Source of the DNA: Leptolinea tardivitalis
GTDB lineage: Bacteria; Chloroflexota; Anaerolineae; Anaerolineales; Anaerolineaceae
NCBI RefSeq assembly: GCF_001050275.1
Contig: NZ_BBYA01000011.1
Span: 124,001 to 188,000, forward strand
Direction: 5' to 3'
Length of the DNA: 64,000 nt
Of the stretch, positions 16,058 through 64,000 are shown one piece after another; within the stretch, counting starts at the first letter, position 1; every line of letters begins with the position of its first letter. The position numbers were made by a program, and so were the translations under genes. Below the pieces are notes generated by a model. It saw nothing but the letters and a program-made list of their open reading frames with translations, did no database searches and had not been told where the DNA came from.

Positions 16058-16532
16058 GGCGGCCTTTCTCCTGTCGTTTCAAGGCGGTTGCCTGAATGGC
16101 ATCTACAATCTGCTGATAACCGGTACAGCGGCACAGGTTGCCAGCAATGGCTTCCCGAATTTCTGCCCGGGTTGGATTGATATTACTGTTCAGTAGAGCC
16201 TCACCGGCCAGCACCATACCAGGAATACAAAATCCGCATTGAACAGCTCCATATTCAATAAACGCCTGTTGTAGATCATTGGGACCGCCGTCTTCAGCAT
16301 GGATTCCTTCAATGGTTACCACACGGCGTCCATTAGCCTGAGCGGCCAAAATCAGACACGAATTGACCAGTTTGCCATCGAGCAACACAGAACAGGCTCC
16401 GCATTCTCCCACATTGCAGCCTTCCTTGGTTCCGGTCAATTTAAGATGATCACGAAGGAAATGCAACAAAGAAATATCAGCCGGCGCTTCTGTATGGATT
16501 GGCTCTTCGTTGACAATCAGATCAAAAATCAT
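16050..16532 (-). CDS. xdhC: Xanthine dehydrogenase-family 2Fe-2S subunit
   Basis: A 160-residue small subunit with two iron-sulphur domains. The plant-ferredoxin-type cluster ligands are Cys39, Cys44, Cys47 and Cys59 (GCNVGECGACSV and NSCL). The helical second domain carries QCGFCIPGM and NLCRCTGYQQ. It passes electrons from the molybdenum centre to the FAD subunit. Its ATG overlaps the FAD-subunit stop by four bases (ATGA) and its stop overlaps the Mo-subunit start, so the three are translationally coupled in roughly equal amounts. The symbol follows the E. coli style; the name xdhC is used for another protein elsewhere. Confidence 0.94.
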   Translation of the reverse strand: MIFDLIVNEEPIHTEAPADISLLHFLRDHLKLTGTKEGCNVGECGACSVLLDGKLVNSCLILAAQANGRRVVTIEGIHAEDGGPNDLQQAFIEYGAVQCGFCIPGMVLAGEALLNSNINPTRAEIREAIAGNLCRCTGYQQIVDAIQATALKRQEKGRRD

Positions 16533-46839: not shown

Positions 46840-47145
46840 ATGAAAATCGAAAACAATCCTGCATCAAATATAATTCCGCAAAAAACTGAGAACATCAGCT
46901 CAGTTGAGCGTTCACAGCTGCAGAAAACCACGTCCGCTCCGGCTGCCCGGACAACCGAAAAAGACCATGCAATCCTTTCGGATCAGGCGCAATTGCTTTC
47001 CAAGGCATTGTCAAAAATGGAAGGTACTCCGGAAGTCCGCATGGAAAAAGTGGAAGCTTTACGTAGCCAGATTCTGGAAGGTCAGTACCAGGTGAACTAC
47101 GAAGGGCTTGCCAAGAAAATGAGCGGCCTGCCGGGCTTGAAGTAA
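46840..47145 (+). CDS. flgM: Anti-sigma-28 factor FlgM
   Basis: 101 residues. The N-terminal half is polar and probably disordered. The C-terminal half (about 45-98) has the FlgM pattern AILSDQAQLLSKALSKM followed by RMEKVEALRSQILEGQYQVN. FlgM holds sigma-28 inactive until the hook is complete and FlgM is exported. It is the first gene behind a perfect sigma-28 promoter, so it forms a negative feedback loop. The ribosome site is AAAGGAT. Confidence 0.92.
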   Translation: MKIENNPASNIIPQKTENISSVERSQLQKTTSAPAARTTEKDHAILSDQAQLLSKALSKMEGTPEVRMEKVEALRSQILEGQYQVNYEGLAKKMSGLPGLK

Positions 47146-49268: not shown

Positions 49269-50180
49269 ATGCGGATAACAAACAGAATGGTTGTCAACAA
49301 CAATATCAACAATATGACAGATGCCATGGATAAACTCTATGACCTGCAGAAACAGTCTGCAACTCATAAGAAATACTTGAAAGCGTCAGACAACCCGAGC
49401 AATAATGCCAGTGTATTAACCCTCAAATCCGCTCTTCAAACCTCACAGGTTTATGAAGCCACTGCTCAGAGTACAAAGGACTGGATGGATGCCACTGATT
49501 TTGCGCTGCAACAGGCTGGTGATATCACTCAGCGGGCTATTTCTGCGGTGATGCGCGGGCTTTCTGATACATCAGGGGCAGATACCCGCAAGACAATCGC
49601 CGAAGAAATTGATGGCATGATCAAAGAAGCCATGGATGTGGCCAATACCAAACACTTGGACCGATATATTTTCTCCGGATTTACGACCAACACTGTACCA
49701 TTTACCATGGGAACAGATCCAGCTGATCCCACAAAGGATATGGCTATTTATAAAACCGGTCTGCCCCAGGATTTTCAAGCCATACGTCGGGATATTGGGC
49801 CGGGGGAAACAATAACAGTAAATATTGACGGCAAAACCACATTTGAACATATGATTAATACCCTGATCAAAACGCGGGATGCCCTTAAGGACAACAATAC
49901 GACTGAACTGAGAGTCCAGGCCGCTCAGTTGGATATTTCACTGGATGAAGTCACACTGGCTACCACTATTAATGGATCGCGAATTCGGGCTCTTGAAGCT
50001 GCCCAGGATCGGATCAGTGAAAGCAATAAAGAAATAAAAGCCCTGATTTCTCAAAAGGAAGAGGCCAATATGGCTGAAGTGACGGCAGAGCTGGCCAATC
50101 AGGAAAATATTTACCAAACGGTGATTACCATCAGCTCAAGAACTCAATCAATGGTGAATTTGTTCGAGTCATTGGGTTAA
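49269..50180 (+). CDS. flgL: Flagellar hook-filament junction protein FlgL
   Basis: 303 residues of the flagellin-like family. The N-terminus has MRITNRMVVNNNINNM and KYLKASDNPSNNASVLTL. The C-terminus has ELANQENIYQTVITISSRTQ. It forms the second junction ring. GGGAGGT ribosome site. csrA follows after 70 bp. Confidence 0.95.
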   Translation: MRITNRMVVNNNINNMTDAMDKLYDLQKQSATHKKYLKASDNPSNNASVLTLKSALQTSQVYEATAQSTKDWMDATDFALQQAGDITQRAISAVMRGLSDTSGADTRKTIAEEIDGMIKEAMDVANTKHLDRYIFSGFTTNTVPFTMGTDPADPTKDMAIYKTGLPQDFQAIRRDIGPGETITVNIDGKTTFEHMINTLIKTRDALKDNNTTELRVQAAQLDISLDEVTLATTINGSRIRALEAAQDRISESNKEIKALISQKEEANMAEVTAELANQENIYQTVITISSRTQSMVNLFESLG

Positions 50181-50250: not shown

Positions 50251-50538
50251 ATGCTCGTTCTCACGCGAAAACTGGAAGAAAGTATTGTTATTGGTAAAGA
50301 TATCACCATAACAATTCTCGCCATTGATAAAGAAAAAGTGAAAATTGGGATTAATGCACCTCGAGACATCCCGGTGGTTCGAAAAGAGCTGTTTCAGGCT
50401 ATTCAGGAACAGAGTGCTGTGGCAGAACAACTGGCTGCCCAGAATAAAGTTGACCATTTTGAAAGTCTGAGGGATTTATTACTCCAACAGACTCCTTCTG
50501 AGGAAGAAACTGAAAAGGACTTTGATCAGGGAAAATAA
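50251..50538 (+). CDS. csrA: Carbon storage regulator CsrA (translational repressor)
   Basis: 95 residues. The first 60 form the CsrA fold: [39 protein letters not shown], with the RNA-binding Leu4, Arg6 and the Arg of VVRKEL. CsrA dimers bind GGA motifs near ribosome sites. The 30-residue acidic C-terminal tail ([13 protein letters not shown]) is longer than in most members. In Bacillus, csrA follows fliW, its protein antagonist; here it follows flgL directly and no fliW is seen. Flagellin, whose leader has a fitting hairpin, is the likely target. Confidence 0.95.
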
Positions 50539-50655: not shown

Positions 50656-52353
50656 ATGGTTATTAACGAGCCTGCAGAAAATCTTACCAATCTCACCGAA
50701 CTGACGCGATTACGCGATCTGGGGCGATACTATTTACAGCGCGACATGGTTGCCCGGGCATTGGAGACATATGCATCATTATTGGAGAAATTTCCGGATG
50801 ATGTATCTACAATGGTAATCATCGGGGATGCATACTTGATGGCCGGTGATACTCAGGCGGCGGGAATAATCTACAGGTTGGCCGCAAAGACCGAGCCACA
50901 ACGTATCGATATTCAACAGCGGTTATCCCTGGCAGATACTGCCACGGCAGATCATGTCAGTATTGCCGGAGGATTTCCTCCATTGCATCCACAGGCGATC
51001 AACCGTCTGGCAGAGAGTTTAACCGGGCATTCTCTGGAGATCGATGAGGGACAGGTCAAACGGGCGGCAGATCTCCTGGAAAAGACCATGCATAGCGACT
51101 CACCGGCAGAAAGTGTTTCGGAACATCTCGATGAAATTGATGCTCTGCTGCCGGCTATTTTGGAATTGAATATTCGTCAGGCCCGGTCTCAGGGTAGAGT
51201 TGACCTGGCCGCAGAGTTAATTGATTTGCAGCGTACATTAATCTCCAATACCGAACAAAATGCAGAAATCATTTCAAATGATTCAACTGAAAATTCCATA
51301 ACTGTTTCGCAGGAACAAAAAGCGGTTCGTGCAATTCTGATTGGTGAACCTTCCATGTTCTCCCCTTTGCGTCTGCCGGTGATGCAGTCTGCCCTGGAAC
51401 AGAGCGGTACTATCATCGAAACTCGCTGGGAAAACATCTCACTCCCCTGGGAAGGTTATGACCTGGTCATCGCTCATAATCCTCATGGTAACCCGGTTTT
51501 TATGAAAGCTCTGGCTGCCTGGGCAGGGTCGGGGAATCCGGTGGTTATGGATTTGGACACCGATTTTCGGATTCTTCCATCCGGACATCCGGCCTCACGG
51601 TCTTTGAATAACACCAATCTGGCTGATCCGCGCACTTTTACAGCGGCGCTTCAGCTCTCCGATATCCTGGTTTTTCCATCCAGTCAGGCGGCGTTGAAGT
51701 TCTCTGACGAGGGATACCAGGCTTACACCATACCTGATGGCTGGTCCATGAAAAACAGCCTTTGGACAAAAACCACAACTCCCTCGGCGCGGGTTAACCT
51801 GGGTATTTTCACCGAACCAGGAAACCTGGAAAACGTTGCCTCCATACGACGTGTGGTGATTCGGATATTACGTGAATTTCCTCAGACTCGTCTGGTTGTC
51901 AGCGGGGATCCCGAAGCATATCAATTATTTGATTCCATTCCAGATACCAGGCGAATATACCTTCCACCAACAGAACCCGAAGATCATCCTTTCCTTCTCG
52001 CGCAGGCTGATATTCATTTATTCCCCATTCAAACAATGGATGAGGTAACCCGGTTGGAAGGAGATCGAAAATACCTGGAAGCGGGTGTACGCAAGGCTGC
52101 CTGGGTAGGGTCACCTTTGCCTGCTGCAGAAGAATGGCATGCCGGCGGGCTCATCGCCAGATCTGTGGACGATTGGTATAGTCATTTGAAAACGCTGATC
52201 ACCGATACAGAACTTCGATCCAAATTGGCAATGGATGGTTTTGAGAAGGCAGGCAAACGGGAAGCCCGGCAAATGGCTGCCCAGTGGAGTGCGATCATTC
52301 AAAAGGCTATCCATGCCACCCAGTCAAAGCCTTTCCCCAAGGAGGGTAAATGA
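50656..52353 (+). CDS. TPR plus GT-B glycosyltransferase-like protein
   Basis: 565 residues. The N-terminal part (about 10-90) has TPR-like helices (RDMVARALETYASLLEKFPD). A linker follows, and from about residue 220 a GT-B-like region: VIAHNPHGNPVFMKALAAW, VVMDLDTDFRILPSGH and, near the C-terminus, the glycosyltransferase-like LEAGVRKAAWVGSPLPAAEE. It probably transfers sugar from a nucleotide donor. No clear promoter appears in the 117-bp gap after csrA. Its stop overlaps the next gene's start by four bases. Its location beside flagellar genes suggests flagellin or surface glycosylation. Confidence 0.75.
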   Translation: MVINEPAENLTNLTELTRLRDLGRYYLQRDMVARALETYASLLEKFPDDVSTMVIIGDAYLMAGDTQAAGIIYRLAAKTEPQRIDIQQRLSLADTATADHVSIAGGFPPLHPQAINRLAESLTGHSLEIDEGQVKRAADLLEKTMHSDSPAESVSEHLDEIDALLPAILELNIRQARSQGRVDLAAELIDLQRTLISNTEQNAEIISNDSTENSITVSQEQKAVRAILIGEPSMFSPLRLPVMQSALEQSGTIIETRWENISLPWEGYDLVIAHNPHGNPVFMKALAAWAGSGNPVVMDLDTDFRILPSGHPASRSLNNTNLADPRTFTAALQLSDILVFPSSQAALKFSDEGYQAYTIPDGWSMKNSLWTKTTTPSARVNLGIFTEPGNLENVASIRRVVIRILREFPQTRLVVSGDPEAYQLFDSIPDTRRIYLPPTEPEDHPFLLAQADIHLFPIQTMDEVTRLEGDRKYLEAGVRKAAWVGSPLPAAEEWHAGGLIARSVDDWYSHLKTLITDTELRSKLAMDGFEKAGKREARQMAAQWSAIIQKAIHATQSKPFPKEGK

Positions 52354-53498
52354 ATTTTGTATTTGTTTGCCCTGAATCTGAAGAATTAAGATGTTCTGTC
52401 GAAAGACGCTGCGTAGCACCGGCCAGGGTGATTAACCGCACCGGTCGTTATTCTGCCGACCTGATCAGCTGGCATGATTTCGCCGTCAATACAACGGAAG
52501 TCAATGATCTGCTCGAAAACAGCGACTATATTATCATTCACCGGGGATTATGGCCTGAACTCCTTCCCCGAATTCAGCATTGGAAAGCCCGTGATAAAAC
52601 CATCATTGCAGATTTTGTGGATGCCTATCAACTGATGAATGAAGATGAACTGGCCGATGTCCATGACATGGAGATTAATGGCGGTCCACAGGCAGGTAAA
52701 GCGGCTGATAACCAGACAGCTTTATTAACACAATTGAAATGGACACTTCAGTCAACTCATGGGGCGACCACACCATCACAACGCCTGTGTGATGATTGGA
52801 ATGCCTATACACGAACCCTGGTGCTTCCTGATTTTCTCGATTTGGAACGTCTGAGTTTGATAGCGCCGCAGTCGCACAAAGGGATTACCCTTGGCTGGAG
52901 GGGCACCGTACGCCGCCTTCAATCCATGAAACAGAGTGGTGTATTAATGGCTCTGGAAGCTTTGTGCCAGATGCGCCCGAATGCCCGCATCATCTTTTCT
53001 GTTGACCATCCAGAAGCGGTAGGGGCATTAAATCTACCCACCGGTCAGGTGGAACTTGTTGATTGGAATTCATCCGGTGGATGGTACCGGCTGCTCAGTC
53101 AGATAGATATTGGCCTAATTCCATATGTAACTGATTTAGAGCAACGGAACTCCTGCAGTGCGATCCTGGAGTACATGGCGTTAAAAATTCCATGGATAGC
53201 GAGCCAGGGTGCTGCTGTATACGATCTGCAGAGCTATGGATGGATTGTGGAAAATACCGCCGAGGGATGGCTAAAGGCGGTTGTAGAGACTGTGGATTAC
53301 CTGGCGGATTATCAGGCGGAAGCATCTGGTGCACCGTATTTGTATGCCCTATCCAGAAGTCTGGAGGAGAATATTCAGACTATTGTAGACACGTATGTGC
53401 GTCTCGGCAGCCTGTATTCCACCCGCCCGCTGGGAGCTCCTCCTTTAAATAACAGCAGCCGGCTGCTGTTGACATCGCAATGGGAAAACGAATTATGA
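52350..53498 (+). CDS. Glycosyltransferase, GT-B/GT1-like
   Basis: 382 residues with GT-B-like organisation. The first half has IIIHRGLWPELLPRIQHW and TTPSQRLCDDWNAYT. The second half has ITLGWRGTVRRLQSMKQSG (donor-side glycine-rich turn) and a donor-site segment QIDIGLIPYVTDLEQRN followed by SCSAILEYMALKIPWIAS, resembling the ExxxKxxEYMA element of family 1/4 enzymes. AAGGAGGG precedes the ATG, which overlaps the upstream stop (ATGA). Substrate unknown. Confidence 0.8.
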   Translation: MNFVFVCPESEELRCSVERRCVAPARVINRTGRYSADLISWHDFAVNTTEVNDLLENSDYIIIHRGLWPELLPRIQHWKARDKTIIADFVDAYQLMNEDELADVHDMEINGGPQAGKAADNQTALLTQLKWTLQSTHGATTPSQRLCDDWNAYTRTLVLPDFLDLERLSLIAPQSHKGITLGWRGTVRRLQSMKQSGVLMALEALCQMRPNARIIFSVDHPEAVGALNLPTGQVELVDWNSSGGWYRLLSQIDIGLIPYVTDLEQRNSCSAILEYMALKIPWIASQGAAVYDLQSYGWIVENTAEGWLKAVVETVDYLADYQAEASGAPYLYALSRSLEENIQTIVDTYVRLGSLYSTRPLGAPPLNNSSRLLLTSQWENEL

Positions 53499-54067
53499 AG
53501 AATCAAGATTATATAGCTACCATGAAACAAATCCAATCATTGATTGATAAACGTGAATGGCAGGCTGCCTGGGAAAAATTATGCATGGCTGATTCGAGAT
53601 TCCCGAATACACCGGCCATCCTCACCGCCATGGGAGACTGTCAAATTCACCTTGAAAAACCGGAAGGCGCTGTTGCCCGGTTTATCCGAGTTACAGAATT
53701 AGAACCCGAATCGGTGGAGGCGTATAACAATCTCGGTGTAGCTTATATGTTTTCCGGTGATTTCCATCAGGCTGAAATTGCCTATCTTCAGGCTTTGCAA
53801 TTCAAGCCCAATCATGAACAAACTGTCAAAAATCTGGCTTTTTTATACTTTCAACAGCAGGACCGATTGGGTGATGCTGCCACATTGCTGGCTGGTATTG
53901 TGAGAAGCAATCCGTCTGATTGTGAAGCCCTGTATCTTATGGGGAAATGTTATGAAATGGGCGGGGATTTGGCTTCTGCCAAACTATGCTTTGAACGTAT
54001 ATTAATGTATCAATCTGATTCCCAAATGGCTATCGATGCCCTTAACCAGCTACAAAGTGTGAATTAA
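53495..54067 (+). CDS. TPR-repeat protein
   Basis: 190 residues, probably entirely TPR repeats, for example LEPESVEAYNNLGVAYMFSG, FHQAEIAYLQALQFKPN and DCEALYLMGKCYEMGG. TPR arrays mediate protein contacts; in sugar-transfer gene sets they often guide the acceptor protein. I chose ATG 53495, overlapping the glycosyltransferase stop by four bases. A longer start at 53480 adds only MGKRI. It is the third gene of a coupled three-gene set. Confidence 0.85.
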   Translation: MKNQDYIATMKQIQSLIDKREWQAAWEKLCMADSRFPNTPAILTAMGDCQIHLEKPEGAVARFIRVTELEPESVEAYNNLGVAYMFSGDFHQAEIAYLQALQFKPNHEQTVKNLAFLYFQQQDRLGDAATLLAGIVRSNPSDCEALYLMGKCYEMGGDLASAKLCFERILMYQSDSQMAIDALNQLQSVN

Positions 54068-54118
54068 TTTTTTCTGCTGGTTTATAATTTAATTAAAATT
54101 AGAAATTAAGGTTAAAAA

Positions 54119-54943
54119 ATGTCGCCCATCCCCCGGATGCATCCTTCACAATCATCAAAAAATGGCAGCGTTGGTACGGCCAAAAGCAATGCTTTTGAGC
54201 CTAAAATGGTCTATGTACCGGCAGGACCTTTTTGGATGGGAAGTTCTGAAGACCATGTGATGCTCCTTGTTCAAAATGAAGATTGGGCGCATGAATGGTA
54301 TGAAGACGGACTCTTCCGTATAGAACAACCCTGTACCCAGGTGATTGGTAAGGAATTTGAGATCGGGATGACCCCCGTTACCAATCTTGAGTATTTTTCG
54401 TTTGTCTGGAAGACCGGCTACAAAGTACCCAAAGGTTGGCAGGGATTTAAATATCCCGAAGGAACGGAATTTCTACCTGTGGTGAATGTTAGTAAAAAGG
54501 ATGCAGAAGCTTACTGTGCCTGGTTAAGTGAAGTTACTGGTAAGCATTACCGACTTCCCACAGAAGGGGAGTGGGAACGGGCGGCATCTGGCACCGACGG
54601 CCGTATCTATCCCTGGGGAGATGATTTTGATCCCTGGCGGTGCAATACACAGGATAGCGGAAAAGGCGGCCCAACTCCGGTTGGATCGTATTCTCCGGCA
54701 GGCGACAGCCCGGTTGGTGCCGTGGATATGGCTGGAAATGTATATGAATGGACCAGCGATCTGCTTCTCCCTTATCCGTACGGAGAAGTTCCGCCGACAC
54801 CGCCAAAAGATCCGAAATACGTAGTTCGTGGTGGGGCGTGGTACTACAGCCATCGGCTGGCGCGCTGCCAGAGCCGCGAAGGTCAAATGGCTGATCATAT
54901 CTCCTTTGCTGTAGGTTTCAGAATAGCCCGATCTTTGGATTGA
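54119..54943 (+). CDS. FGE/SUMF1-fold protein, probably non-catalytic
   Basis: 274 residues with the formylglycine-generating-enzyme fold: FEIGMTPVTNLEYFSFV, VVNVSKKDAEAYCAWLSEVT, YRLPTEGEWERAASG, VDMAGNVYEWTSDL and VVRGGAWYYSHRLAR. Active oxygen-dependent FGEs use a Cys pair five residues apart near the C-terminus; here only the second is kept (ARCQSREG) and the first position is His. It is therefore probably a binding or structural member of the family, not a sulphatase activator. A TATAAT at 54083-54088 in the AT-rich 51-bp gap may be its own -10. AAGG ribosome site. Confidence 0.85.
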   Translation: MSPIPRMHPSQSSKNGSVGTAKSNAFEPKMVYVPAGPFWMGSSEDHVMLLVQNEDWAHEWYEDGLFRIEQPCTQVIGKEFEIGMTPVTNLEYFSFVWKTGYKVPKGWQGFKYPEGTEFLPVVNVSKKDAEAYCAWLSEVTGKHYRLPTEGEWERAASGTDGRIYPWGDDFDPWRCNTQDSGKGGPTPVGSYSPAGDSPVGAVDMAGNVYEWTSDLLLPYPYGEVPPTPPKDPKYVVRGGAWYYSHRLARCQSREGQMADHISFAVGFRIARSLD

Positions 54944-54991
54944 TCTGTGAAGTACGGAAAATGAGACCCGGTGGATTAATCATTCACTGGA

Positions 54992-55975
54992 TCAGTTATT
55001 GTTAAGATTCATTGTGGTGAGCATGGCCGCACCCAGGAGCGTTTCTGTTCCATCGAAAAATGAATGAACCAGCTTGACCCGTTGTTGAAAGAGCGGAGAT
55101 AGGTATTTCTGTGTTGCTTTTATTATCAAAGGATACATAACGTCCCAGGATCGGGTAACGCCGCCTCCCAGTACGATCAACTGTGGATCAATCAACTCAA
55201 CTACATAGCTGATCCCCAACCCAAGTGCATCGATTCCCCGTTCAACGATTTTCACAGCTTGAATATCACCTTCACGACAGGCCTCAAATAAGAGTTGAGC
55301 ATCGATCTTGCCAAGATTATTATTCCCCAGGCGGTACAGTGGACTGTCCATTTCGGCATTCTGGTAGGCTTCAGTTCCGTATTTACTGAACGCCCATCCT
55401 GAGGTGAGAGTTTCAACACAACCATACTTTCCGCAGGCGCATAACGGACCATCCGGTTCAACCGTCATATGGCCGAATTCACCGGCCATGCCCTGTCCTT
55501 TGAAAAGCCGGTTGGAAAGGATCAGTCCAGAACCCACCCCTGTGGATATTTGGATGTAGAGCATATCTGATACGCCTTTACCGGCACCAAATATCCATTC
55601 TCCGATGGCGGCTGCGTTGCCATCGTTTTCCATGTACGTTGGCAAATTGAACAATGATGAAATCTTTTCAGGAAGCGGAAAGTTGTTCCAGTTTTTTACA
55701 TGCATTGATTTCACCACAGATTTGCCATCATCACTGATAATCCCTCCAAAGCTGATACCGATCCCCTTGATTTCTTCTCTGGGTATGGCGCATGAATCCA
55801 AAATTGTCGAACCGGTTTTTACCATCGCCTGAAAACAGGCATCAGCTCCCTGTTCAGCGGGAGCCGGAAGACGGATGAGATTGGATATGGTACCTGTGGC
55901 TGTATTTATCAGACTGGCGGCCAGTTTTGTTCCACCAAAATCAAATGCCAGTGCAAAGTTGGCTGTGTTTGTCAT
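54992..55975 (-). CDS. ROK-family sugar kinase (glucokinase-like)
   Basis: 327 residues. The ATP-binding start is ALAFDFGGTKLAASLI. The ROK signature and zinc-binding CxCGxxGC (CACGKYGC) are present, as is GEFGHMTVEPDG with the His/Glu used in sugar binding. There is no N-terminal DNA-binding helix, so it is a kinase rather than a repressor. It phosphorylates glucose, N-acetylmannosamine or a similar sugar. GAGGTGA ribosome site and a good promoter just upstream. It is convergent with the FGE-fold gene. Confidence 0.92.
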   Translation of the reverse strand: MTNTANFALAFDFGGTKLAASLINTATGTISNLIRLPAPAEQGADACFQAMVKTGSTILDSCAIPREEIKGIGISFGGIISDDGKSVVKSMHVKNWNNFPLPEKISSLFNLPTYMENDGNAAAIGEWIFGAGKGVSDMLYIQISTGVGSGLILSNRLFKGQGMAGEFGHMTVEPDGPLCACGKYGCVETLTSGWAFSKYGTEAYQNAEMDSPLYRLGNNNLGKIDAQLLFEACREGDIQAVKIVERGIDALGLGISYVVELIDPQLIVLGGGVTRSWDVMYPLIIKATQKYLSPLFQQRVKLVHSFFDGTETLLGAAMLTTMNLNNN

Positions 55976-56300
55976 GTTGTCACCTCAATATTGCCCAGTA
56001 TAGATATTTCTAATTAGTTTGTCGAATGGATGATATTGCATACAATGACAAAATAAAATCTTTTTTTCCGGTGTAAATTTCCTGATGTATCGAAATCCTT
56101 TGTTCACACCAAACGTTGGCGATCTTGTATTCCAGAGATATACGGGATTAAAAAAGACTAAAAAAGGAAAATTTTCAGATAAGATTAACAGATTCTTGTG
56201 CTAAATGCTGATAGAGTAATAAAGTTACAATTGTTCGTGAGATGACCAAACAAACCGGAATTTTGAACACTTCTTTTTATAAAAGGTAAGGCGACCTTCT
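55976..56300. other. 325-bp AT-rich divergent spacer, ROK kinase / GT2
   Basis: No coding frame. It holds the minus-strand ROK promoter (annotated separately). On the plus strand TTGTCG-N16-TACAAT (56019-56046) overlaps that promoter and could drive the GT2 gene with a long leader of about 250 bases. A TAAAGTTA at about 56220 resembles a sigma-28 -35, but no matching -10 follows. AAGGTAAGG precedes ATG 56301. Confidence 0.4.
55997..56025 (-). promoter_or_regulatory. Sigma-A promoter for ROK kinase
   Basis: On the minus strand TCGACA (56025-56020), exactly 17 bp, then TATACT (56002-55997); five of six match at each hexamer. The start would be near 55990, about 15 bases before the ATG, leaving just room for the GAGGTGA ribosome site. 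Confidence 0.6.
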
Positions 56301-57944
56301 ATGGCTAAAAACAGAGAGAATACGAGTAATAAATCATCGAGTGGAAACGCCCCCAAAAAAAGTGCATTGAATTCAGGAACTGACAAAGTTCATCCAAAAG
56401 GAATGCCGATAAGCCCTTCTGAAGAGGGAATTTACGAAATCAATACAGATGGGCAGGTGAATACTCCCCCAGAAGAGTCTCTGGAAAAGACCCGGCAAAA
56501 CCGGGTGACAGCCATACTGGGAGACCGGTCAGAGCTTGTGACCCTTTTTGTCCAGGCGTATAACCGGCTTGACAAGACAAAAACATGCCTCGAAAGCATA
56601 TTGAATTACACCAAAGGTATTGATTTTGAATTGATCCTGTTGGATAACGGATCCACGGATGGCACACTGGATTTCTTCAAGCAGGTGCCGTATGACAGGA
56701 AGAAAATCTATCACATATCTCAGAATGTTGGCAGTTTAGCTCCTGCTCCCCATATTGAATGGTCTGGCCGGTATATTGTTTATATTCCTGCTGATACGTA
56801 TGTCACAAAGAACTGGTTGACGAATTTACTCACCTGTGTGCGAAGTGATCCCAAAATCGGTGTGGCGGCTCCAATAATTTTTAATGTGGACCATAATGAA
56901 ACGCCGACTTTTACCTTTTCTTCTTATGAAGAAATGCAGGAAAAAGCGGCAAAACATAATATCTCGGATCCGCGCCTCTGGTATGAGCGTCTCATCATGG
57001 AACCGTCTGGTGGTGTGTACAAACGTGAAGCGCTGGATATTGCCGGAAAGATCAGTGATTATGGTTTCTTCCATTCTAGCTCAGACTATGATCTGGCGTT
57101 TCGTATCCGCCGGGCCGGGTACAAAACCATTCTCTGCCAGGACACGTATGTTCACCACGACCATCCCCGCACGAATCTTCAGGGAAAAGATCTTGAAGAC
57201 CGTTCCAGAGATTTACGGGCGGCCGCACGCGATTTTGAACAAAAGTACTTTGGCATTAATGGCTGGATTGATGGTAGTAACTTTGAAACGATCCTGTTAT
57301 CCACGGTGGATATCGAACAGTACAATGGAAGAAATAAGCTCGAAATTCTGGGGATTGATGTTCGGTGCGGCGCACCCATTCTTGAATTAAAAAATAAACT
57401 GCAAATGGGCGATCATTTTGATACGCGCCTATCTGCATTTACAACCGATCCAAAGTACTGGCTTGACCTGAAAACCATCTGCGTCGGTGAAGTCACCTCA
57501 GACAGGATTGAATACCTGAGTGAGCATTTCACCGATACATTGTTTGATTTTATTTTGCTGGGCAGGCCGATCAATACATATGCGGTTCGGCCTGTTGATT
57601 TATTAAACATCCTTTTGAAAAAAATAAAACCCGATGGGCATCTACTTATAAAATTACGGAATACATTCGATGTGGTCACCACACTCAAATCACTGGGAGC
57701 CAACCTCAATGTTGGTGAAGCCGCAGATTTGCCAGCCTGGCAAATAAATATTGAGGATTTCAACAGACATGTGAATACTCTTGGTTATCAAATCAAGAAA
57801 ATCTCTGTTGAAAATTGGCCAATGGATGCCAATATTCAGGATGTTGTGAAAAGAATAGTGAATTCAGACAGCTTCTCTGACAATAAGAACGAAGTATTAA
57901 CCCGCATACTGACCAGAGATTATGTCCTGAACCTGGCGCGGTAA
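56301..57944 (+). CDS. GT2 glycosyltransferase with methyltransferase-like C-terminal domain (copy A)
   Basis: 547 residues. A polar N-terminal extension (about 1-60) leads to a GT2 domain (about 75-310): LVTLFVQAYNRLDKTKTCLE, LILLDNGSTDGTLDFF, VYIPADTYVTKNWL and DYDLAFRIRRAGYKT. The C-terminal part (about 340-545) has the outline of a class I SAM methyltransferase (LFDFILLGRPINTY, IKPDGHLLIKLRNTF), but the SAM-binding glycine loop is replaced by IDVRCGAPILEL and the acidic ribose ligand is not evident. It has a full-length paralogue at 57991-59640 on the other strand. Probably sugar transfer for flagellin or cell surface. Confidence 0.87.
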   Translation: MAKNRENTSNKSSSGNAPKKSALNSGTDKVHPKGMPISPSEEGIYEINTDGQVNTPPEESLEKTRQNRVTAILGDRSELVTLFVQAYNRLDKTKTCLESILNYTKGIDFELILLDNGSTDGTLDFFKQVPYDRKKIYHISQNVGSLAPAPHIEWSGRYIVYIPADTYVTKNWLTNLLTCVRSDPKIGVAAPIIFNVDHNETPTFTFSSYEEMQEKAAKHNISDPRLWYERLIMEPSGGVYKREALDIAGKISDYGFFHSSSDYDLAFRIRRAGYKTILCQDTYVHHDHPRTNLQGKDLEDRSRDLRAAARDFEQKYFGINGWIDGSNFETILLSTVDIEQYNGRNKLEILGIDVRCGAPILELKNKLQMGDHFDTRLSAFTTDPKYWLDLKTICVGEVTSDRIEYLSEHFTDTLFDFILLGRPINTYAVRPVDLLNILLKKIKPDGHLLIKLRNTFDVVTTLKSLGANLNVGEAADLPAWQINIEDFNRHVNTLGYQIKKISVENWPMDANIQDVVKRIVNSDSFSDNKNEVLTRILTRDYVLNLAR

Positions 57945-57984
57945 AACCGGTCAAACTGATATTGACAATTATTTGGTTTTGGCC

Positions 57985-58009
57985 CGAAGTCTATTTCTTA
58001 CAGACTTCG
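57985..58009. repeat. Inverted repeat between the convergent GT2 copies
   Basis: Perfect 8-bp arms CGAAGTCT/AGACTTCG (57985-57992, 58002-58009) spanning the stop codon of the minus-strand copy. It may stop transcription from either side, but neither side has a T-run, so its function is uncertain. Confidence 0.35.
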
Positions 58010-59640
58010 ATGACATAATCTCGGATTAATGCCCTTGTAAAAGCTTCTTCCGGGTTAATTCCCACGCCTGATGCCATGATTGTTCTTTTTAATACATCCC
58101 GGATATTGCCATCCAATGGCCAATTATCAACCAGAAATTTGCGGGGATAACATCCGGAGTCTTCCATGAGTCTGACAAACTCATCTATATGTACCTGTGC
58201 AAATCTTTCATCTGGATTGGTATTCAAAGTTGAGAGTTGAAGATTGGCACCACACGTCTGGAGGACGGCGAATACATCGTATGAGTTGTGCAACTTTAGT
58301 AACAGACTACCATTTTTGTCTAGTAGCGGCAACAAACTTCGGAAAAGAGCAAATGGATTGGGAAATGCGTTTATTGGTTTGCCCAGTAAAACATAATCAA
58401 AGGTCTGATTTTTGAATTGCGCACTCAGCGTTTCGATGGGATCACAGACAACCTGCCCGTCACAAATTGTATGTAGGTCCAACCAATACCTGGGATCGCT
58501 GGAAAATGCATTTAATTGACAAGTTTTCCCCCCATATTCACGGATTTTATTTTTTAATTCAAGCAGGGGAGTGCCACACAAAACGTCTATTCCAAGAGCA
58601 GAGAGTGGATTCTTTGATGAGATTTTCTCCGGGGAAATCAAAGATATCAGGGAACTTTCAAAATTATTGACATCATCAAATGCATCAATACCGAAATACT
58701 TCTTCCGAAACTCTTTTCTCCCGGTTTCAAAAGATACATTTTTTTCTGTCTGATTTTTCTCCTGTGGATTATTTCGATCATGATCATGGTGGACAAATGT
58801 ATCTTTACATAAGATCAATTTGAATCCGGCCCGGCGAATGCGAAAGGAAAAATCATTATCTGCAAGATAATGGTGAAATCCTGTGTCTCCGAGGCCGCCC
58901 AATTCGAGAGCTTCCCGTCTATACAGACCAACAGCCGGAAAGAGAGCCAGTCTTTCTTGCCAGAGAGCAGGATTCGACGTATTGAAAGCGGCAGCTTTTT
59001 CCTGCATCTCTTCTAGTGTATTGAATTTTAAATCGACTGTTTGCAGGCTGACATTGGATGCCACTGGTGATACCATCCCGATGGTGTCATCACTTTTCAT
59101 GCAGGTGAGCAGATTCTTCAACCAGTTCTTCGTGACATAAACATCGCCCATAATGTAGGCAAGATAACGCCCGGAATAGTGGTTGAAGACGATATTGACA
59201 ATCCCGCCGAGGTTTTTTGTTACCCGGATGATCTTTTTTCGCGGATGGTTAATCGATTTGAAGTAATCCAATGTGCCATCCGTTGATCCATTATCAAACA
59301 GGATGAGTTCATAATCAAAATCATTCGTCCACCGCAATATGGAGTCAATACATATTTTTGTTTTCTCAAGCCTGTTGAACGCCTGCACGGCTATGCTGAC
59401 CATGTCTGCTCGATCTCCCAGAGCCGCGATGACCTTTTCTCTTCTCGCTGTCAACATGTCGTCGTCTGGCTGGGATGGACGGTTATGATCTGTGTTGATG
59501 ATGATGATTTCATTCGATGGGCCTGCCAACTCTCTGACGTGGTTAATTTCACTAATTCCTGCTACTGTCAAATTGGCTGCTGAATCATTCTGTTGAAATT
59601 CTTTTTTATTCGGTGATTTTCTATTTGATAGTTCACTCAT
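57991..59640 (-). CDS. GT2 glycosyltransferase with methyltransferase-like C-terminal domain (copy B)
   Basis: 549 residues, same plan as copy A: polar N-terminus (about 1-75), GT2 domain with MVSIAVQAFNRLEKTKICID, LILFDNGSTDGTLDYF, YIMGDVYVTKNWL and DNDFSFRIRRAGFKL, then a methyltransferase-like tail with LGIDVLCGTPLLELKNKI and FDYVLLGKPINAF. The DxD position reads MGD here and PAD in copy A. The pair is clearly duplicated and now convergent. GGAAGGAGC ribosome site. Likely the last gene of the minus-strand run from 63597. Confidence 0.87.
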   Translation of the reverse strand: MSELSNRKSPNKKEFQQNDSAANLTVAGISEINHVRELAGPSNEIIIINTDHNRPSQPDDDMLTARREKVIAALGDRADMVSIAVQAFNRLEKTKICIDSILRWTNDFDYELILFDNGSTDGTLDYFKSINHPRKKIIRVTKNLGGIVNIVFNHYSGRYLAYIMGDVYVTKNWLKNLLTCMKSDDTIGMVSPVASNVSLQTVDLKFNTLEEMQEKAAAFNTSNPALWQERLALFPAVGLYRREALELGGLGDTGFHHYLADNDFSFRIRRAGFKLILCKDTFVHHDHDRNNPQEKNQTEKNVSFETGRKEFRKKYFGIDAFDDVNNFESSLISLISPEKISSKNPLSALGIDVLCGTPLLELKNKIREYGGKTCQLNAFSSDPRYWLDLHTICDGQVVCDPIETLSAQFKNQTFDYVLLGKPINAFPNPFALFRSLLPLLDKNGSLLLKLHNSYDVFAVLQTCGANLQLSTLNTNPDERFAQVHIDEFVRLMEDSGCYPRKFLVDNWPLDGNIRDVLKRTIMASGVGINPEEAFTRALIRDYVIEVCKK

Positions 59641-59701
59641 TGCATTGCTCCTTCCATGTTCAACAGTGATTCCAGGAATTTACGACACAGGCTGACGATT
59701 T

Positions 59702-61081
59702 TTAATTTGTCTGATTGATCAGTGACAAAATTTCTGAAATATATGGATTTTTATTGATTCGCTGATCTGCATATTTCATTAATGGTTCTGCAGACGATAT
59801 GGCTTCCTTGATTTTTCCCTGTTTCCATTGAGATAGCGCCAGAATGGCTATGGCATTCGGCTCCAGATCACCTTGAGATGCTGCCAGCAGGCTGGTTTTT
59901 TCTGCCTGGGCAAAATTACCAATCGCATAGAAATAATCGGTCATACAAAGCAAAACATACAGCGATTTCGGCGCAATCCGCCAGGCTTCGGCCAGAGCCG
60001 GCCAGGCAGTCTGAAGATCACCCATCTGGATGCACACAGCGGCGAAATTCGTGTAGCGGGTTACATCAAATGGGAATCGGGATATCTCGTTTGCATAGAA
60101 TTGACGGGCTTCCATCAGCTGGCCTGAATTCAAAAAACTTATGCCCTGTTCGGACGTTCGGAAATAATCAACCAGCTCTTGACGGGGATGTATGTCATTC
60201 TGGTTTTCATTTTCGATTGACGGCAATTCAGGAACAGGCACGTGAGCTGCCACTTCATGGAGGATTTGTGGCAGGTCCCCTTCAAAATCATCCGAAGCAG
60301 GCAGGTGTTCTCTGTAATGATTTTGGATAATGCTTTTTATTAACTCTATTGCCCGGTTGTCTTCAACGGTGGAAAACCTGTTGACATTGGCCCAATGATC
60401 TTCTGAGTACTGGATTCCTGCTCCACCTCCCCTCGCCATTTTTATTTTCCATTCTTCTTCAGAGCGGGTAAAGTAATGATTGATATGAATTGAATCGGCA
60501 TGGCAGGGAAATTCTTGTGCATCGACACGCAGTTTTTTCTCATTAACACAATATGCACCTTCCTTAAAGAGGAAGGAATGAGGAGAGATAGGGTAGATCA
60601 CTTTTTCGGGTTGGACGATCATTTTCACGAAACGATTCCGGGAAAATCTTTCAGGGGTTCGTTTTCGATACCCGGCGATCTGTCCGGCAGGTGGACTGTG
60701 TTTGTGACCGTTATCGCCAAAGAAAAGTGAGCTAATGGCGAATCCGCCGTATTGTTCAAAATCTCTTAAGTAAGTACTTAAGAGATTGGGAGTGTGAGGA
60801 ACGATAAACTCGTCTGTATCGAGAAAACCAATCCATTTACTGAGGCGGCCGTATGTCTGAATGCAGTGATCATAGGCATACATCTGCACTACCCGGCCTT
60901 CAATATGGTGGACGGTCACCCAACCCGACTGGATATAAGTTTTAAGTGTATTCTCAACCGGAATGGTACTTTCGTTATCATATATCCAAAAATGCTCAAC
61001 ACCCAGGAGAATATGATAATCAATCCATTCCTGGAGGTAGTTGTTTTCATTTTTTACGATCAGACACAGGGAGAGGTACAT
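59702..61081 (-). CDS. GT92 (DUF23) glycosyltransferase with TPR tail (copy 2)
   Basis: 459 residues. The GT92 domain (about 1-250) has MYLSLCLIVKNENNYLQEW, FWIYDNESTIPVENTL and GFLDTDEFIVPH (the DxD metal site), then INHYFTRSEEEWKIKMARG. The C-terminal part (about 300-455) is TPR-like (FAAVCIQMGDLQTAWPALAE). GT92 enzymes include galactosyltransferases acting on N-glycans or core sugars. Paralogue at 62191-63597. GAGGATAT precedes the ATG. Confidence 0.87.
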   Translation of the reverse strand: MYLSLCLIVKNENNYLQEWIDYHILLGVEHFWIYDNESTIPVENTLKTYIQSGWVTVHHIEGRVVQMYAYDHCIQTYGRLSKWIGFLDTDEFIVPHTPNLLSTYLRDFEQYGGFAISSLFFGDNGHKHSPPAGQIAGYRKRTPERFSRNRFVKMIVQPEKVIYPISPHSFLFKEGAYCVNEKKLRVDAQEFPCHADSIHINHYFTRSEEEWKIKMARGGGAGIQYSEDHWANVNRFSTVEDNRAIELIKSIIQNHYREHLPASDDFEGDLPQILHEVAAHVPVPELPSIENENQNDIHPRQELVDYFRTSEQGISFLNSGQLMEARQFYANEISRFPFDVTRYTNFAAVCIQMGDLQTAWPALAEAWRIAPKSLYVLLCMTDYFYAIGNFAQAEKTSLLAASQGDLEPNAIAILALSQWKQGKIKEAISSAEPLMKYADQRINKNPYISEILSLINQTN

Positions 61082-61136
61082 ATATCCTCATGAAGGGATA
61101 AGGAGTCTTTCACGCGGTGCCTATCAAGAAAGAAAT

Positions 61137-62204
61137 TCATACTGAGCCCAGATCTTCGCGGAATCGATTTTGCCATTGTCTGGCGATTACTGGCCAATCA
61201 TAATATTTAACGACATCCAGATTGTGCAATGCCAGACGTTCGTATTCATTGTCATCTGAAAGAATTTTTATCAGGGCTTTTTCCCAGATTCTGAGCCAGT
61301 CATTCCCTGGAGCAATAAGCGGATTTTGCCAGGCGGTCTCAATTAATGCACCCACGCTGGTGCTCACCACAACGCACCCGGCGGCCATAGCTTCCATGGC
61401 CGCAATACATGATGTCTCTGGGAATGTGCATGGATAGGCAAGGGCACGGCAAGATTCTGCGGTTTCACGCAATTCTTTTTGCCCGACCACTCCACGATAA
61501 TTTATTCCCGGCAGGTTTCGGGCTTTTTCGAAAAGCTGCAAAAATTCGATGTTATCTTCTGCATTGTAGACTTTCATGGATGAAAAGATATGCAGTTGAG
61601 CACGGGGTACCGCCTGACGGATAGCCGGCCAGGATTGCAATAACAGATGAAGCCCTCTGAATGGTGTAGAAGCATAGTAGCACCAGGGTTTACGCTGACG
61701 TAATGTGGTTGGATTCACATGGAATTTTTCCATTGGAATCCCATTGGTTGTCGGGATGATCTTTTCAACCGCAAGGTGCAGTGATTTAATCCACCGTACC
61801 TGTTGATAGGTTGAGAGCAAGAAAAGGCCGGTCAGCCGTTTATAAATCGGTAAAGCGACTTCCGGTTTATGAAGGTCTTCCACCAGTTTCTGGTCAACAT
61901 CATCTTGGCACCAGAGATAGTTAACCTTACCCGGATATAAACCCAGCTGGAAAACTTGCCACACGCGTAGAGAAACAAATACATCGCAAGTCAGGCCATT
62001 AAGTAGATCCGCATCTGTAATAATCCGTACCTGGTTGCCCATTTGCCTGAGGGTATCTGCCAGCCGCAGGGCGGCTGTCTCACTGCCACCCAGCGGATTG
62101 AGTTCGGGATAGTCGGGTTCGTGAAGGCGTTCTCCGTGGGAAGAGAGGATATAAAAGACGATATCCAGCGGCCTGTCTTGATGGGTGTGTCTATTTCTGG
62201 TCAT
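61137..62204 (-). CDS. Glycosyltransferase family 4-like
   Basis: 355 residues with GT-B fold. The N-terminal domain has LDIVFYILSSHGERLHEPD, NPLGGSETAALRLADTLRQM (acceptor-side glycine turn) and DVFVSLRVWQVFQ. The C-terminal donor domain has CYYASTPFRGLHLLLQSWPA, YRGVVGQKELRETAESC and the donor-site PCTFPETSCIAAMEAMAAGC. It transfers a sugar from a nucleotide donor. The start overlaps the upstream GT92 gene end by 14 bp, so the two are coupled. GGAAAGG ribosome site. Confidence 0.9.
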   Translation of the reverse strand: MTRNRHTHQDRPLDIVFYILSSHGERLHEPDYPELNPLGGSETAALRLADTLRQMGNQVRIITDADLLNGLTCDVFVSLRVWQVFQLGLYPGKVNYLWCQDDVDQKLVEDLHKPEVALPIYKRLTGLFLLSTYQQVRWIKSLHLAVEKIIPTTNGIPMEKFHVNPTTLRQRKPWCYYASTPFRGLHLLLQSWPAIRQAVPRAQLHIFSSMKVYNAEDNIEFLQLFEKARNLPGINYRGVVGQKELRETAESCRALAYPCTFPETSCIAAMEAMAAGCVVVSTSVGALIETAWQNPLIAPGNDWLRIWEKALIKILSDDNEYERLALHNLDVVKYYDWPVIARQWQNRFREDLGSV

Positions 62205-63597
62205 GACCGACCTTTCCTTCCAGATTCATCAGGGATACCATTTCCTGGAACAACACATGGCTGGATGCCAGTTCGGGTGTCAGCTGTGGAAGTAATAACC
62301 GGGCTGTTTCCATAGCCTGCTCCTTCTTCCCCTGTTTCCATTGTGAGAGCGCCAGGGCGGCAACGCCCAGCGGTTCCAGGTTGCCATAACTCTGGATCAG
62401 GTAGGAACATTTTTCCGCCTGGGCATAGTCACCGATGGCATAAAAGTAATCCACCATGCAAAACAGAAGTGTCCAATTTCTCGGTGACATCCGCCAGCCC
62501 TGTGCCAGAGCTTCCCAGGCGGCTGGGAAATCTTTCATTTCAATACAGGCAGAGGCAAAATTGCCGTAAAAATTCAGATCATGGGGGAACTGCCGAATCA
62601 GTCGGCTGTATAACTGCCGGGCTTCCAGAAATCGGCCAGAACCCATATAGTCCATGCCGTCTAGAAGATCCTTAATAAGGTCTACCATTTCTTTGCGATC
62701 AGTGATTTCCTCCACCGGCGCTGCGTTACATGGGGGAGGAAGGACTGATTCGGCTGCCGTAGACATCAGGCCAAGGAACTGTGTGGATGTCGGGTCGGTG
62801 AGGGCAGCGAAATTTCTGGCTCTGGCTGGCGGAAGTTTAAGATGATGTATGATTGCCCATGGCGCGGCTTCGTCACGAACTGTGCTGTTTTTCGAGATAT
62901 CAATCCAGCGCTGGTTGGAATAGGCGTCACCCATGTCTCCCCGGCCGCGGGATAGTTTATCTTTCCATTCCTGCGCCGAGCGGGTATAGTAATGGTTCAA
63001 CTGGATTTTCTGTACACTGCAGGGAAAATACTGTGTATCCACCCGGCTGCCCTGTTCATTTACGCAATAGTATCCTTCACGAAACATGAAGGAATGCGGC
63101 GAAACCGGAAACATCACTTTTTCCGGCTGGATGATGGCTTTCACCGATCGGTTTTTGGATAGCTCTTCCGGGGTTCGCATCAGATAACCGGCTACCTGCC
63201 CGCAGCGGGGACGGTTCTGGTTGCCGCCAGGCCCGAAGAAAAGCGAACTTAAAGCCAATCCGCCGTATTGTTCAAAATCTCTAAGGAATTCGGGGATGTC
63301 TTTCCCTGTTTTGGGCAGAATAAATTCATCGGTGTCGATAAAACCGATCCAGCGGGAGTAATGGCCGTAGGTTTGCAGGCAGTGATCATAAGCAAAAAGC
63401 TGCCTGCCTTTGCCATGGATGGTATTGCAGGTTACCCAACCTTTCTGGATGTAGTCACTGATAGATTCAGCCAAAGGAACAGTGGAATCGTTGTCATATA
63501 TCCAGAAATGTTCCACCCCGAATAAGATATGGTAATCAAGCCATTCCTTGAGGTACGTATTCTCATCTTTGGCGATCAAACATAATGAAAGGTACAT
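62191..63597 (-). CDS. GT92 (DUF23) glycosyltransferase with TPR tail (copy 1)
   Basis: 468 residues, the same plan as 59702-61081: MYLSLCLIAKDENTYLKEW, FWIYDNDSTVPLAE, WIGFIDTDEFILPK (DxD site) and LNHYYTRSAQEWKDKLSRG, then a TPR tail with SGRFLEARQLYSRLIRQFPH. It is the first gene of the minus-strand glycan run and divergent from flagellin. No ribosome site is evident. A TATACT/TACAAT-like -10 lies about 10 bp before the ATG, so the mRNA may be nearly leaderless. Confidence 0.87.
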   Translation of the reverse strand: MYLSLCLIAKDENTYLKEWLDYHILFGVEHFWIYDNDSTVPLAESISDYIQKGWVTCNTIHGKGRQLFAYDHCLQTYGHYSRWIGFIDTDEFILPKTGKDIPEFLRDFEQYGGLALSSLFFGPGGNQNRPRCGQVAGYLMRTPEELSKNRSVKAIIQPEKVMFPVSPHSFMFREGYYCVNEQGSRVDTQYFPCSVQKIQLNHYYTRSAQEWKDKLSRGRGDMGDAYSNQRWIDISKNSTVRDEAAPWAIIHHLKLPPARARNFAALTDPTSTQFLGLMSTAAESVLPPPCNAAPVEEITDRKEMVDLIKDLLDGMDYMGSGRFLEARQLYSRLIRQFPHDLNFYGNFASACIEMKDFPAAWEALAQGWRMSPRNWTLLFCMVDYFYAIGDYAQAEKCSYLIQSYGNLEPLGVAALALSQWKQGKKEQAMETARLLLPQLTPELASSHVLFQEMVSLMNLEGKVGHDQK

Positions 63598-63684
63598 AGA
63601 ATTATTGTAGTATATGTGCTTCAGCCGGTTGTGGTTTTAGTCCCCAATATTTATGCAATATTCACGCCGAAATTCAAAAAGGGC
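63598..63684. other. Divergent spacer between GT92 gene and flagellin promoter
   Basis: No open frame. It is AT-rich next to the GT92 start, where a TATACT-like hexamer could serve the minus strand. Nothing else recognisable. Confidence 0.4.
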
Positions 63685-63711
63685 TTAAGTTTTCAGGCTG
63701 ATCTACGATAA
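63685..63711 (+). promoter_or_regulatory. Sigma-28 type promoter for flagellin
   Basis: TTAAGTTT (63685-63692), 11 bp, TACGATAA (63704-63711). It differs from the consensus seen at flgM by one base in the -35 and two in the -10. Start near 63718 gives a leader of about 185 bases. An 11-bp inverted copy of the -10 area (ATTATCGTAGA, 63750-63760) lies downstream. Confidence 0.8.
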
Positions 63712-63717
63712 TCTTCT

Positions 63718-63903
63718 ATAGATTGATCAAAGGATACACTGAAGGAGGCATTATCGTAGAGATACCTGCCAGAAAATAGTGAAGGAACGCGAACCGGTTA
63801 TCAGGGTTCCAGACCGGAAGCGGAAAATAAAAAAAAAAGGAACCCAAATTCCCAAATGCTGGGGGAAGGAACCCCCGGCGAACCACAAACATGGAGGTTT
63901 GAA
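63718..63903 (+). promoter_or_regulatory. Long structured flagellin leader
   Basis: About 185 untranslated bases with many GGA triplets, a run of A (about 63829-63838), GGGTTCC at 63804-63810 and two copies of its complement GGAACCC at 63839-63845 and 63868-63874. The first copy could form a 7-bp stem with a 28-base loop; pairing with the second would break the hairpin at 63858-63879. GGAGG at 63893-63897 is the ribosome site. Confidence 0.6.
63858..63879 (+). promoter_or_regulatory. Hairpin with AAGGAA loop, probable CsrA binding site
   Basis: An 8-bp stem GCTGGGGG/CCCCCGGC with one G-U pair and a six-base loop AAGGAA (63866-63871). GGA in a hairpin hexaloop is the canonical CsrA target. 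The second GGA, in the ribosome site (63893), is about 25 bases away, a spacing fit for binding by one CsrA dimer. Confidence 0.68.
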
Positions 63904-64000
63904 ATGGCTAATCAAGATGTAACTCGTATTGCTTCAAATATCGGCGCTTTGAATTCCCTGTGGGCTTTGACCTCTGTTAACAAACAGTTAGGCGTTGCCC
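63904..64000 (+). CDS. fliC: Flagellin, N-terminus only
   Basis: The first 32 residues before the window ends: MANQDVTRIASNIGALNSLW and then ALTSVNKQLGVA. The SNIGALNSLWALTSVNKQL segment is the conserved D0 start of flagellins (compare INTNVASLNAQRNL). GGAGG is six bases before the ATG. A sigma-28 promoter and structured leader precede it, and flagellin-type junction protein genes lie in the same locus. Another flagellin-like protein cannot be excluded from so little sequence. Confidence 0.88.
   Translation, partial: MANQDVTRIASNIGALNSLWALTSVNKQLGVA

Follow-up and report, generated by a model that had tools for sequence, protein, structure and literature searches.

A probable flagellin glycosylation island with a conserved GT-B/FGE-fold core in Leptolinea tardivitalis

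Gene content of the locus

The stretch of DNA under study (64,000 nucleotides of Leptolinea tardivitalis, G000:C11:124001-188000, termed the window in the following) stems from a 3.69-Mb genome in 15 contigs and harbours, between two flagellar loci, a gene island which is very probably dedicated to the modification of flagellin. Ten long, closely packed open reading frames (ORFs, called mechanically), designated A to J, separate flgL-csrA on the left from fliC on the right. The left flank comprises flgL (49269..50180, + strand) for a flagellin-like junction protein (Flagellin_N, 7.1e-8), named from its position and by eye, and csrA (50251..50538, +), an ORF of 95 amino acids (aa) with a Pfam CsrA match of 7.2e-24. 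On the right, fliC (63904..64000, +; start codon picked by eye) continues past the end of the window, with Flagellin_N (6.5e-30) matching at C11:187928-188338, i.e., from position 63928 of the window to beyond its end; its product consists of 413 aa and contains no cysteine.

The first four island genes lie on the plus strand: (i) A (50656..52353), combining an N-terminal TPR part (residues ~15-200, Pfam) with a predicted C-terminal GT-B domain (~222-557, structure model), (ii) B (52350..53498), encoding a GT-B-like protein with a Glyco_trans_1_4 match below the cut-off (1.2e-4) and an hhalign match to the GT-B half of A, (iii) C (53480..54067), encoding a TPR-only protein (TPR_19, 3.8e-17), and (iv) D (54119..54943), encoding a protein of the FGE/SUMF1 fold (PF03781, 9.2e-49) without the FGE cysteine pair. 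Gene E (54992..55975, -) codes for a ROK-family sugar kinase (ROK, 1.1e-61), its best NCBIfam match being glucokinase-like and below the cut-off. The products of F (56301..57944, +) and G (57991..59640, -) are GT2 proteins (Glycos_transf_2, 1.5e-13 and 7.6e-16) with methyltransferase-like tails, the tail of G yielding sub-threshold methyltransferase matches. Genes H (59702..61081, -) and J (62191..63597, -) encode GT92 proteins (Glyco_transf_92, 1.8e-22 and 4.3e-21) with a C-terminal TPR-like part in H (very weak, 0.0042) and a C-terminal TPR in J (TPR_19, 9.7e-7), and I (61137..62204, -) encodes a GT4 protein (Glyco_trans_1_4, 2.1e-13).

Seven of the ten genes (A, B, F, G, H, I, J) are thus transferase-like. 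The sugar-transfer island between two flagellar loci that the first-pass annotation had described is borne out by these long, packed ORFs at the expected positions, and the Pfam matches as well as the later work back its gene list; all genes listed were right, but the FGE/SUMF1-fold gene D and the ROK kinase gene E had been overlooked. Since A and B overlap by 4 bases, I and J by 14 bases, and B also overlaps with C, the genes appear to form two transcription units, A-B-C-D and J-I-H-G. Scans for sigma-70 promoters and terminators gave no more than the shuffled level.

The GT-B proteins A and B

The structure model of A (mean pLDDT 79.5, pTM 0.53) displays TPR-type helices up to about residue 200, followed by the GT-B half. 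No Pfam match was obtained for this C-terminal part, and the assignment of a GT-B domain to A accordingly rests on the model. In VIA-align comparisons, GT-B enzymes fall on residues 222-557 (MshA: Z 19.0, root-mean-square deviation (rmsd) 9.3, 312 aligned residues), and the last domain of A alone aligns with PimA (Z 18.3, rmsd 2.7, 169 aligned). O-GlcNAc transferases and SPINDLY (GT41) rank first in Foldseek searches with the A model and share the TPR plus GT-B layout, but TM reaches only 0.22-0.28 of the query, and A has no GT41 Pfam match at E-values up to 0.01. A profile of A run against solved structures matched with its TPR part in all of the best 60 of 161 rows.

The profiles of A and B align over 324 columns (hhalign probability 99.4 %, E-value 3.1e-21), and it is this profile homology on which the classification of B as a GT-B-like paralogue of the GT-B half of A is based; against solved structures, the B profile gave no match at E-values up to 0.1. 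As neighbouring paralogous GT-B proteins that possibly form a complex, A and B recall the GtfA-GtfB pair of serine-rich-repeat adhesins, which reportedly also consists of two such neighbours.

The FGE-fold protein D

Orthologues of D (n=14) are 48-90 % identical to it. D resembles ToxD (8.2e-51), CalU17 (1.6e-42), FGE (about 2e-32) and PvdO (1.4e-24) in fold, but differs from FGE chain 8aru at both of its cysteine columns, which are occupied by Tyr243 and Ala248 in 15/15 D orthologues; a further chain, 31dc, has serine at the first of the two columns. We take these columns to be the catalytic Cys336 and Cys341 of human FGE. The FGE substrate motif C-x-P/A-x-R is absent from all 14 flagellins, as the presumed target, inspected (one of them, that of G429, stems from a genome without full-length B), and 13 of the 14 are free of cysteine, the flagellin of G028 having two. 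That D acts as a functional FGE towards flagellin was rejected, since both cysteines are replaced and the target motif is absent from the flagellins. Possible roles of D are those of a binding subunit or of a tailoring enzyme like PvdO, ToxD or CalU17.

Genes of the FGE fold are found in 75 of the 101 genomes of the relatives set (G000 included), of which 22 are flagellin-positive, one of these (G073) below the family cut-off. Matches to D at E-values < 1e-80 occur in 15/22 flagellin-positive versus 0/79 flagellin-negative genomes. A tree of FGE-fold rows (n=32), calculated from gap-stripped tblastn pieces of the best 30 rows plus two chosen ones (G460, G470) and hence missing weaker FGE paralogues, contains a D clade of 18 rows with 100/100 support, composed of flagellin-positive genomes only; the rows of flagellin-positive G073 and G065 fall outside of it. 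A D-clade gene is also present near a CheA-like gene in G076 (L119, about 15371-16099), a flagellin-positive genome without B.

Remaining island genes

Gene C is present as a stand-alone gene at the same place in G001, G002 and G003, while E is variable, with a 65 % identical copy in the G003 region and none seen in the G001 island. F and G share 45 % identity, and the best named match for G is from a Chloroflexi metagenome-assembled genome (MAG; 53 %). The model of G is weak (mean pLDDT 56.8), only its tail being moderately confident, and the Foldseek rows obtained with it are class I methyltransferases (3cc8, 1.4e-11). At what is presumably the place of the cofactor motif, the stretch IDVLCGTP is well conserved but does not correspond to the GxGxG that we take to be usual. 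The tails of F and G are methyltransferase-like at most, and their designation as proven enzymes was discarded in view of the low-confidence model and the deviating motif. For I, genes near fliC in G001, G003 and G460 encode proteins of 68 %, 73 % and 54 % identity, respectively.

The island proteins have no convincing membrane segments: nine of the ten contain no 19-residue Kyte-Doolittle window of at least 1.6, and I contains two such hydrophobic windows near residue 266, within its GT4 match, as compared to 14 and 85 in membrane-protein controls. Flippase, polymerase and undecaprenyl-sugar transferase were not found among the ten proteins by Pfam.

Occurrence and genomic context in relatives

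B (E-values up to 1e-5) was detected in 18/22 flagellin-positive versus 1/79 flagellin-negative genomes of the relatives set (Fisher 3.6e-15, with related genomes counted as independent), and the GT92-TPR family (E-values up to 1e-10) in 6/22 versus 0/79. In case of the class sample (396 genomes), B at E-values < 1e-100 is restricted to 5/27 flagellin-positive genomes versus 0/369 others; at the looser threshold of 1e-5, 79 genomes match the B profile, the rest at best with 1.6e-16 and mostly partially. The phylum sample (390 genomes) yielded B at E-values up to 1e-20 in 3/46 flagellin-positive versus 0/344 other genomes. Genomes with a strong match to the cassette have flagellin.

The gene neighbourhood of B was tallied by hand in 21 genomes, i.e., the 18 flagellin-positive carriers of the 101-genome set plus G133, G460 and G470, with many genes in the relatives named by BLAST against genes of the Leptolinea stretch. 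In 19 of these 21, B resides in a flagellar or chemotaxis cluster. It is located beside flgL or at most ~12 kb from fliC in twelve genomes (G000, G001, G003, G005, G016, G024, G028, G060, G062, G065, G095, G133) and in a chemotaxis/motor cluster in seven (G004, G006, G014, G033, G041, G460, G470). The window genes that served as reference for the latter cluster encode, according to Pfam, MotA, MotB, FliM, CheA, CheD, CheB and CheX; the gene of MotA is adjoined by one for a histidine kinase and one for a response regulator. In the remaining two carriers, G002 and G070, no flagellar gene accompanies B on the contig; that of G002 measures 3.9 kb and carries A-B-C alone.

A, B and D occur together in 15/21 carriers, with C inserted between B and D in the genus Leptolinea. 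G016 displays the minimal form flgL-A-B-D-fliC, and in G028 A and D are located at flgL and B at fliC. Five carriers have no contiguous trio (G002, G041, G062, G065, G133), owing to contig ends or to the absence of D beside B. The genes on the fliC side vary: G001 and G003, which belong to the same genus, possess an FkbM-type methyltransferase gene in place of F and G, and G460 has the order FkbM-type, GT4, GT92, GT92, fliC. Island gene content is thus not the same in close relatives, whereas the flagellar genes on either side are retained.

Alternatively, the product of the genes could be a polysaccharide of the cell surface (a capsule, an exopolysaccharide or an S-layer glycan), with the flagellar neighbours being incidental. 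GT2, GT4 and GT92 families are found in many kinds of glycan locus, and outside the phylum, the nearest relative of G (L007, Ruminococcus MAG, 41 %) is situated among sugar-pathway-like genes, with no flagellar gene recognised by eye. Moreover, the trio of G070 is surrounded by MFS, FTR1 and ABC-transporter genes. Nevertheless, this explanation is very improbable, since Pfam detects no flippase, polymerase or undecaprenyl-sugar transferase in the island and convincing membrane segments are missing, B, D-type and GT92-TPR genes track flagellin, B sits in flagellar or chemotaxis surroundings in 19 of 21 carriers, and two neuB genes occupy a polysaccharide-like cluster elsewhere in the genome. 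A lone polysaccharide locus was rejected for these reasons.

Considering that A follows flgL in seven genomes (G000, G001, G003, G005, G016, G024, G028) and that B is found by chemotaxis, kinase or motor genes and not by fliC in G004, G006, G014, G033, G041, G460 and G470, the target might be a flagellar protein other than the filament flagellin (FlgL, FlgK, FliD), or else a regulator of motility. This is likewise very improbable, given that GT92-TPR genes adjoin fliC in G000, G001, G003, G005, G028, G060 and G460, that a GT4 gene is also located there in G000, G001, G003 and G460, and that published islands, as far as their available text goes, consider flagellin the acceptor (PMC4875605, PMC5109656, PMC13317340).

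Two genomes of the same class, G429 and G467, contain no full-length B; A and D were looked for there only by BLAST of the fetched stretch. Both carry by fliC (G429, L165 3180-9059; G467, L166 5846-10407) a gene for NeuB (1.9e-83 and 1.5e-81) and one of the MptE/Maf type (8e-40 and 2.6e-42) instead, which, going by these matches, is a putative alternative flagellin-modification locus. NeuB is fused there to a xylose-isomerase-like TIM barrel (639 aa in G429, 630 aa in G467), and a methyltransferase gene is also present in the NeuB/MptE locus of G429. The slot beside flagellin is filled differently within one class, by A-B-D here and by neuB plus Maf-type genes in G429 and G467.

Comparison with known flagellin glycosylation systems

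Flagellin glycosylation islands have been published for Enterobacteriaceae, Geobacillus and Clostridium (PMC4875605, PMC5109656, PMC13317340, available portions). The portions at hand mention GT2, GT41/SPINDLY-type and FkbM genes as well as transferases with methyltransferase domains (PMC4875605, PMC5109656), and GT2-TPR proteins as predicted flagellin transferases of Clostridium sporogenes (PMC13317340). The arrangement flgL-csrA-[A..J]-fliC, with its seven transferase-like genes inside the filament locus, corresponds to them in that transferase and methyltransferase(-like) genes are inserted at the flagellin locus in a strain-variable manner. In contrast to what those portions describe, a TPR-GT-B/GT-B/FGE-fold trio recurs here across several families of one order, GT92-TPR genes are present, and the island contains no sugar-biosynthesis set. 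PMC4875605 contains neither the word formylglycine nor sulfatase, the latter also being absent from PMC5109656, and in the open-access literature searched nothing relevant was found that links flagellin to a GT92 gene or to one of the FGE type. Within that literature, the island is of a known general kind, while its conserved core was not found described.

According to the available text on FlmG of Caulobacter crescentus, its N-terminal TPR part binds flagellin, its C-terminal part is a GT-B domain, it operates in cytoplasmic flagellin O-glycosylation, and it is reported to be sufficient once pseudaminic acid is supplied (PMC7591256). A is similar to FlmG in the layout of TPR plus GT-B (Pfam and predicted model) and differs from what is described there by the paralogous partner B and the accessory D alongside. 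The role of acceptor guides that had been suggested for the TPR parts from the sequence alone finds in FlmG a published precedent, within the extent of that text (PMC7591256).

Sugar type

Neither NeuB nor Maf, a CMP-sugar (cytidine monophosphate-sugar) gene or a nucleotide-sugar set was detected by Pfam among the ten island proteins, which distinguishes the island from the Maf/nonulosonic-acid system. Genome-wide, however, there are two strong neuB genes on C1 (1.1e-77 and 3.1e-71), a weak third match on C9, and one gene for an MptE-like protein (a domain also occurring in Maf), which shares a 26-kb stretch of C1 with the two strong neuB genes. By eye, a large surface-polysaccharide-like cluster at G000:C1:140001-180000 (L125, L126) holds both neuB genes and the MptE-like gene.

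If A acted like FlmG and received CMP-sugars from this C1 cluster, the island would represent a nonulosonic-acid (pseudaminic/legionaminic) system, i.e., a special case of flagellin glycosylation whose likelihood is contained in that of the latter. Besides the two neuB genes and the MptE-like gene of G000, FlmG speaks for it, which has the same layout as A and, in the text available, takes pseudaminic acid, its host having no Maf (PMC7591256). We nevertheless consider it unlikely, since such genes are missing from the island itself, a longer glycan is to be expected from seven transferases, the neuB cluster on C1 resembles a surface-polysaccharide locus by eye, and rmlC-, rmlA- and rmlD-type genes follow D in G028. 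The multi-step flagellin glycosylation system of the first-pass annotation, said there to be not of the pseudaminic-acid type, has thus held with respect to a dedicated flagellin-modification island, as the transferases follow flagellin and the gene contexts agree; its second part is not settled by an island devoid of neuB and maf, since neuB genes exist elsewhere in the genome and FlmG uses pseudaminic acid, so that a sugar other than pseudaminic acid can only be suggested.

Proposed function

Taking gene content, predicted folds, conserved order and position, flagella-linked occurrence and the lack of convincing membrane segments together, the locus is very probably an island for cytoplasmic O-glycosylation, and we infer flagellin to be the acceptor. 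The layout that A shares with FlmG, the neuB and Maf-type genes found by fliC in G429 and G467 in place of full-length B, and the rml-type genes behind D in G028 count in its favour as well. The TPR modules of A, C, H and J would catch newly made flagellin in the cytoplasm, where the transferases would use ready-made nucleotide sugars to glycosylate Ser/Thr residues of the variable middle of flagellin and to build a short glycan; the glycosylated protein would then be exported and built into the filament. The trio A-B-D may attach the first sugar to the protein; A would act jointly with its paralogue B, and D would be a dedicated accessory part. The products of the GT92-TPR, GT4 and GT2-methyltransferase genes, which are exchanged between species, would extend and methylate the glycan, and the methyltransferase parts may cap it.

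Several findings weigh against this interpretation. (i) B does not follow flagellin strictly: flagellin-negative G035 yields a weak match (2.6e-9), 4/22 flagellin-positive relatives lack B (G055, G073, G074, G076), and full-length B is missing from 22/27 (class sample) and 43/46 (phylum sample) of the flagellin-positive genomes. The cassette is therefore bound to a lineage, and flagella can in general do without it. (ii) Presuming that the EX7E motif of GT4 enzymes applies to A and B, its last glutamate is kept in 17/17 B homologues and 14/15 A orthologues, but the first was not found in any row of either alignment (A, n=15; B, n=17), so that, by sequence, catalysis by A or B is not assured. 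(iii) The ROK kinase is the sole sugar-supply gene in the island, and Ser+Thr account for just 8 % of the middle part of one of the two G024 flagellins. (iv) On a 13-kb contig of G070, the trio is situated among non-flagellar genes (MFS, GT2, FTR1, ABC transporter). A non-flagellar location in relatives had been named beforehand as refuting flagellin glycosylation; considered by itself, G070 provides one, compared to 19/21 carriers with flagellar or chemotaxis surroundings. Since in G095, from the same genus, about 5 kb separate the same MFS-GT2-D-B-A block from the fliC and fliD genes, the estimate for flagellin glycosylation was kept despite G070.

It is plausible, though somewhat less likely than not, that A-B-D form a new type of flagellin glycosyltransferase complex, composed of the TPR-GT-B protein A, its paralogue B, and the FGE-fold protein D, repurposed as acceptor- or glycan-binding subunit or as tailoring enzyme. 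If true, this lineage would have an alternative of its own to Maf and stand-alone FlmG. The island would also provide a likely context for a subfamily of the FGE fold and for bacterial GT92-TPR proteins, and probably a concrete flagellin-modification system in Chloroflexota, for which direct evidence of flagella was, according to the available part of PMC10284905, limited to Tepidiforma as of 2023.

Further observations

The slot beside flagellin contains giant ORFs in G005 (L039 8269-12552, 1427 aa) and G028 (L044 3628-6870, 1080 aa), both with several GT2-like parts recognised by eye. In a named Chloroflexi MAG, six GT92-TPR-like ORFs are arranged in tandem (L006 1-9749), the first of them truncated at the edge of the locus. 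Deoxysugar-like genes and two GT2-methyltransferase genes are located close by, and the stretch ends in a CheX gene (1.6e-15). In the window, the GC content of the island genes ranges from 42 to 50 % (whole window, 47.8 %), being lowest in G, C and F. The ORF at 46840 is preceded by a sigma-28-like site (TAAAGTTT...GCCGATA) at 46772, and a looser one was recognised by eye before fliC, within 63598-63904.

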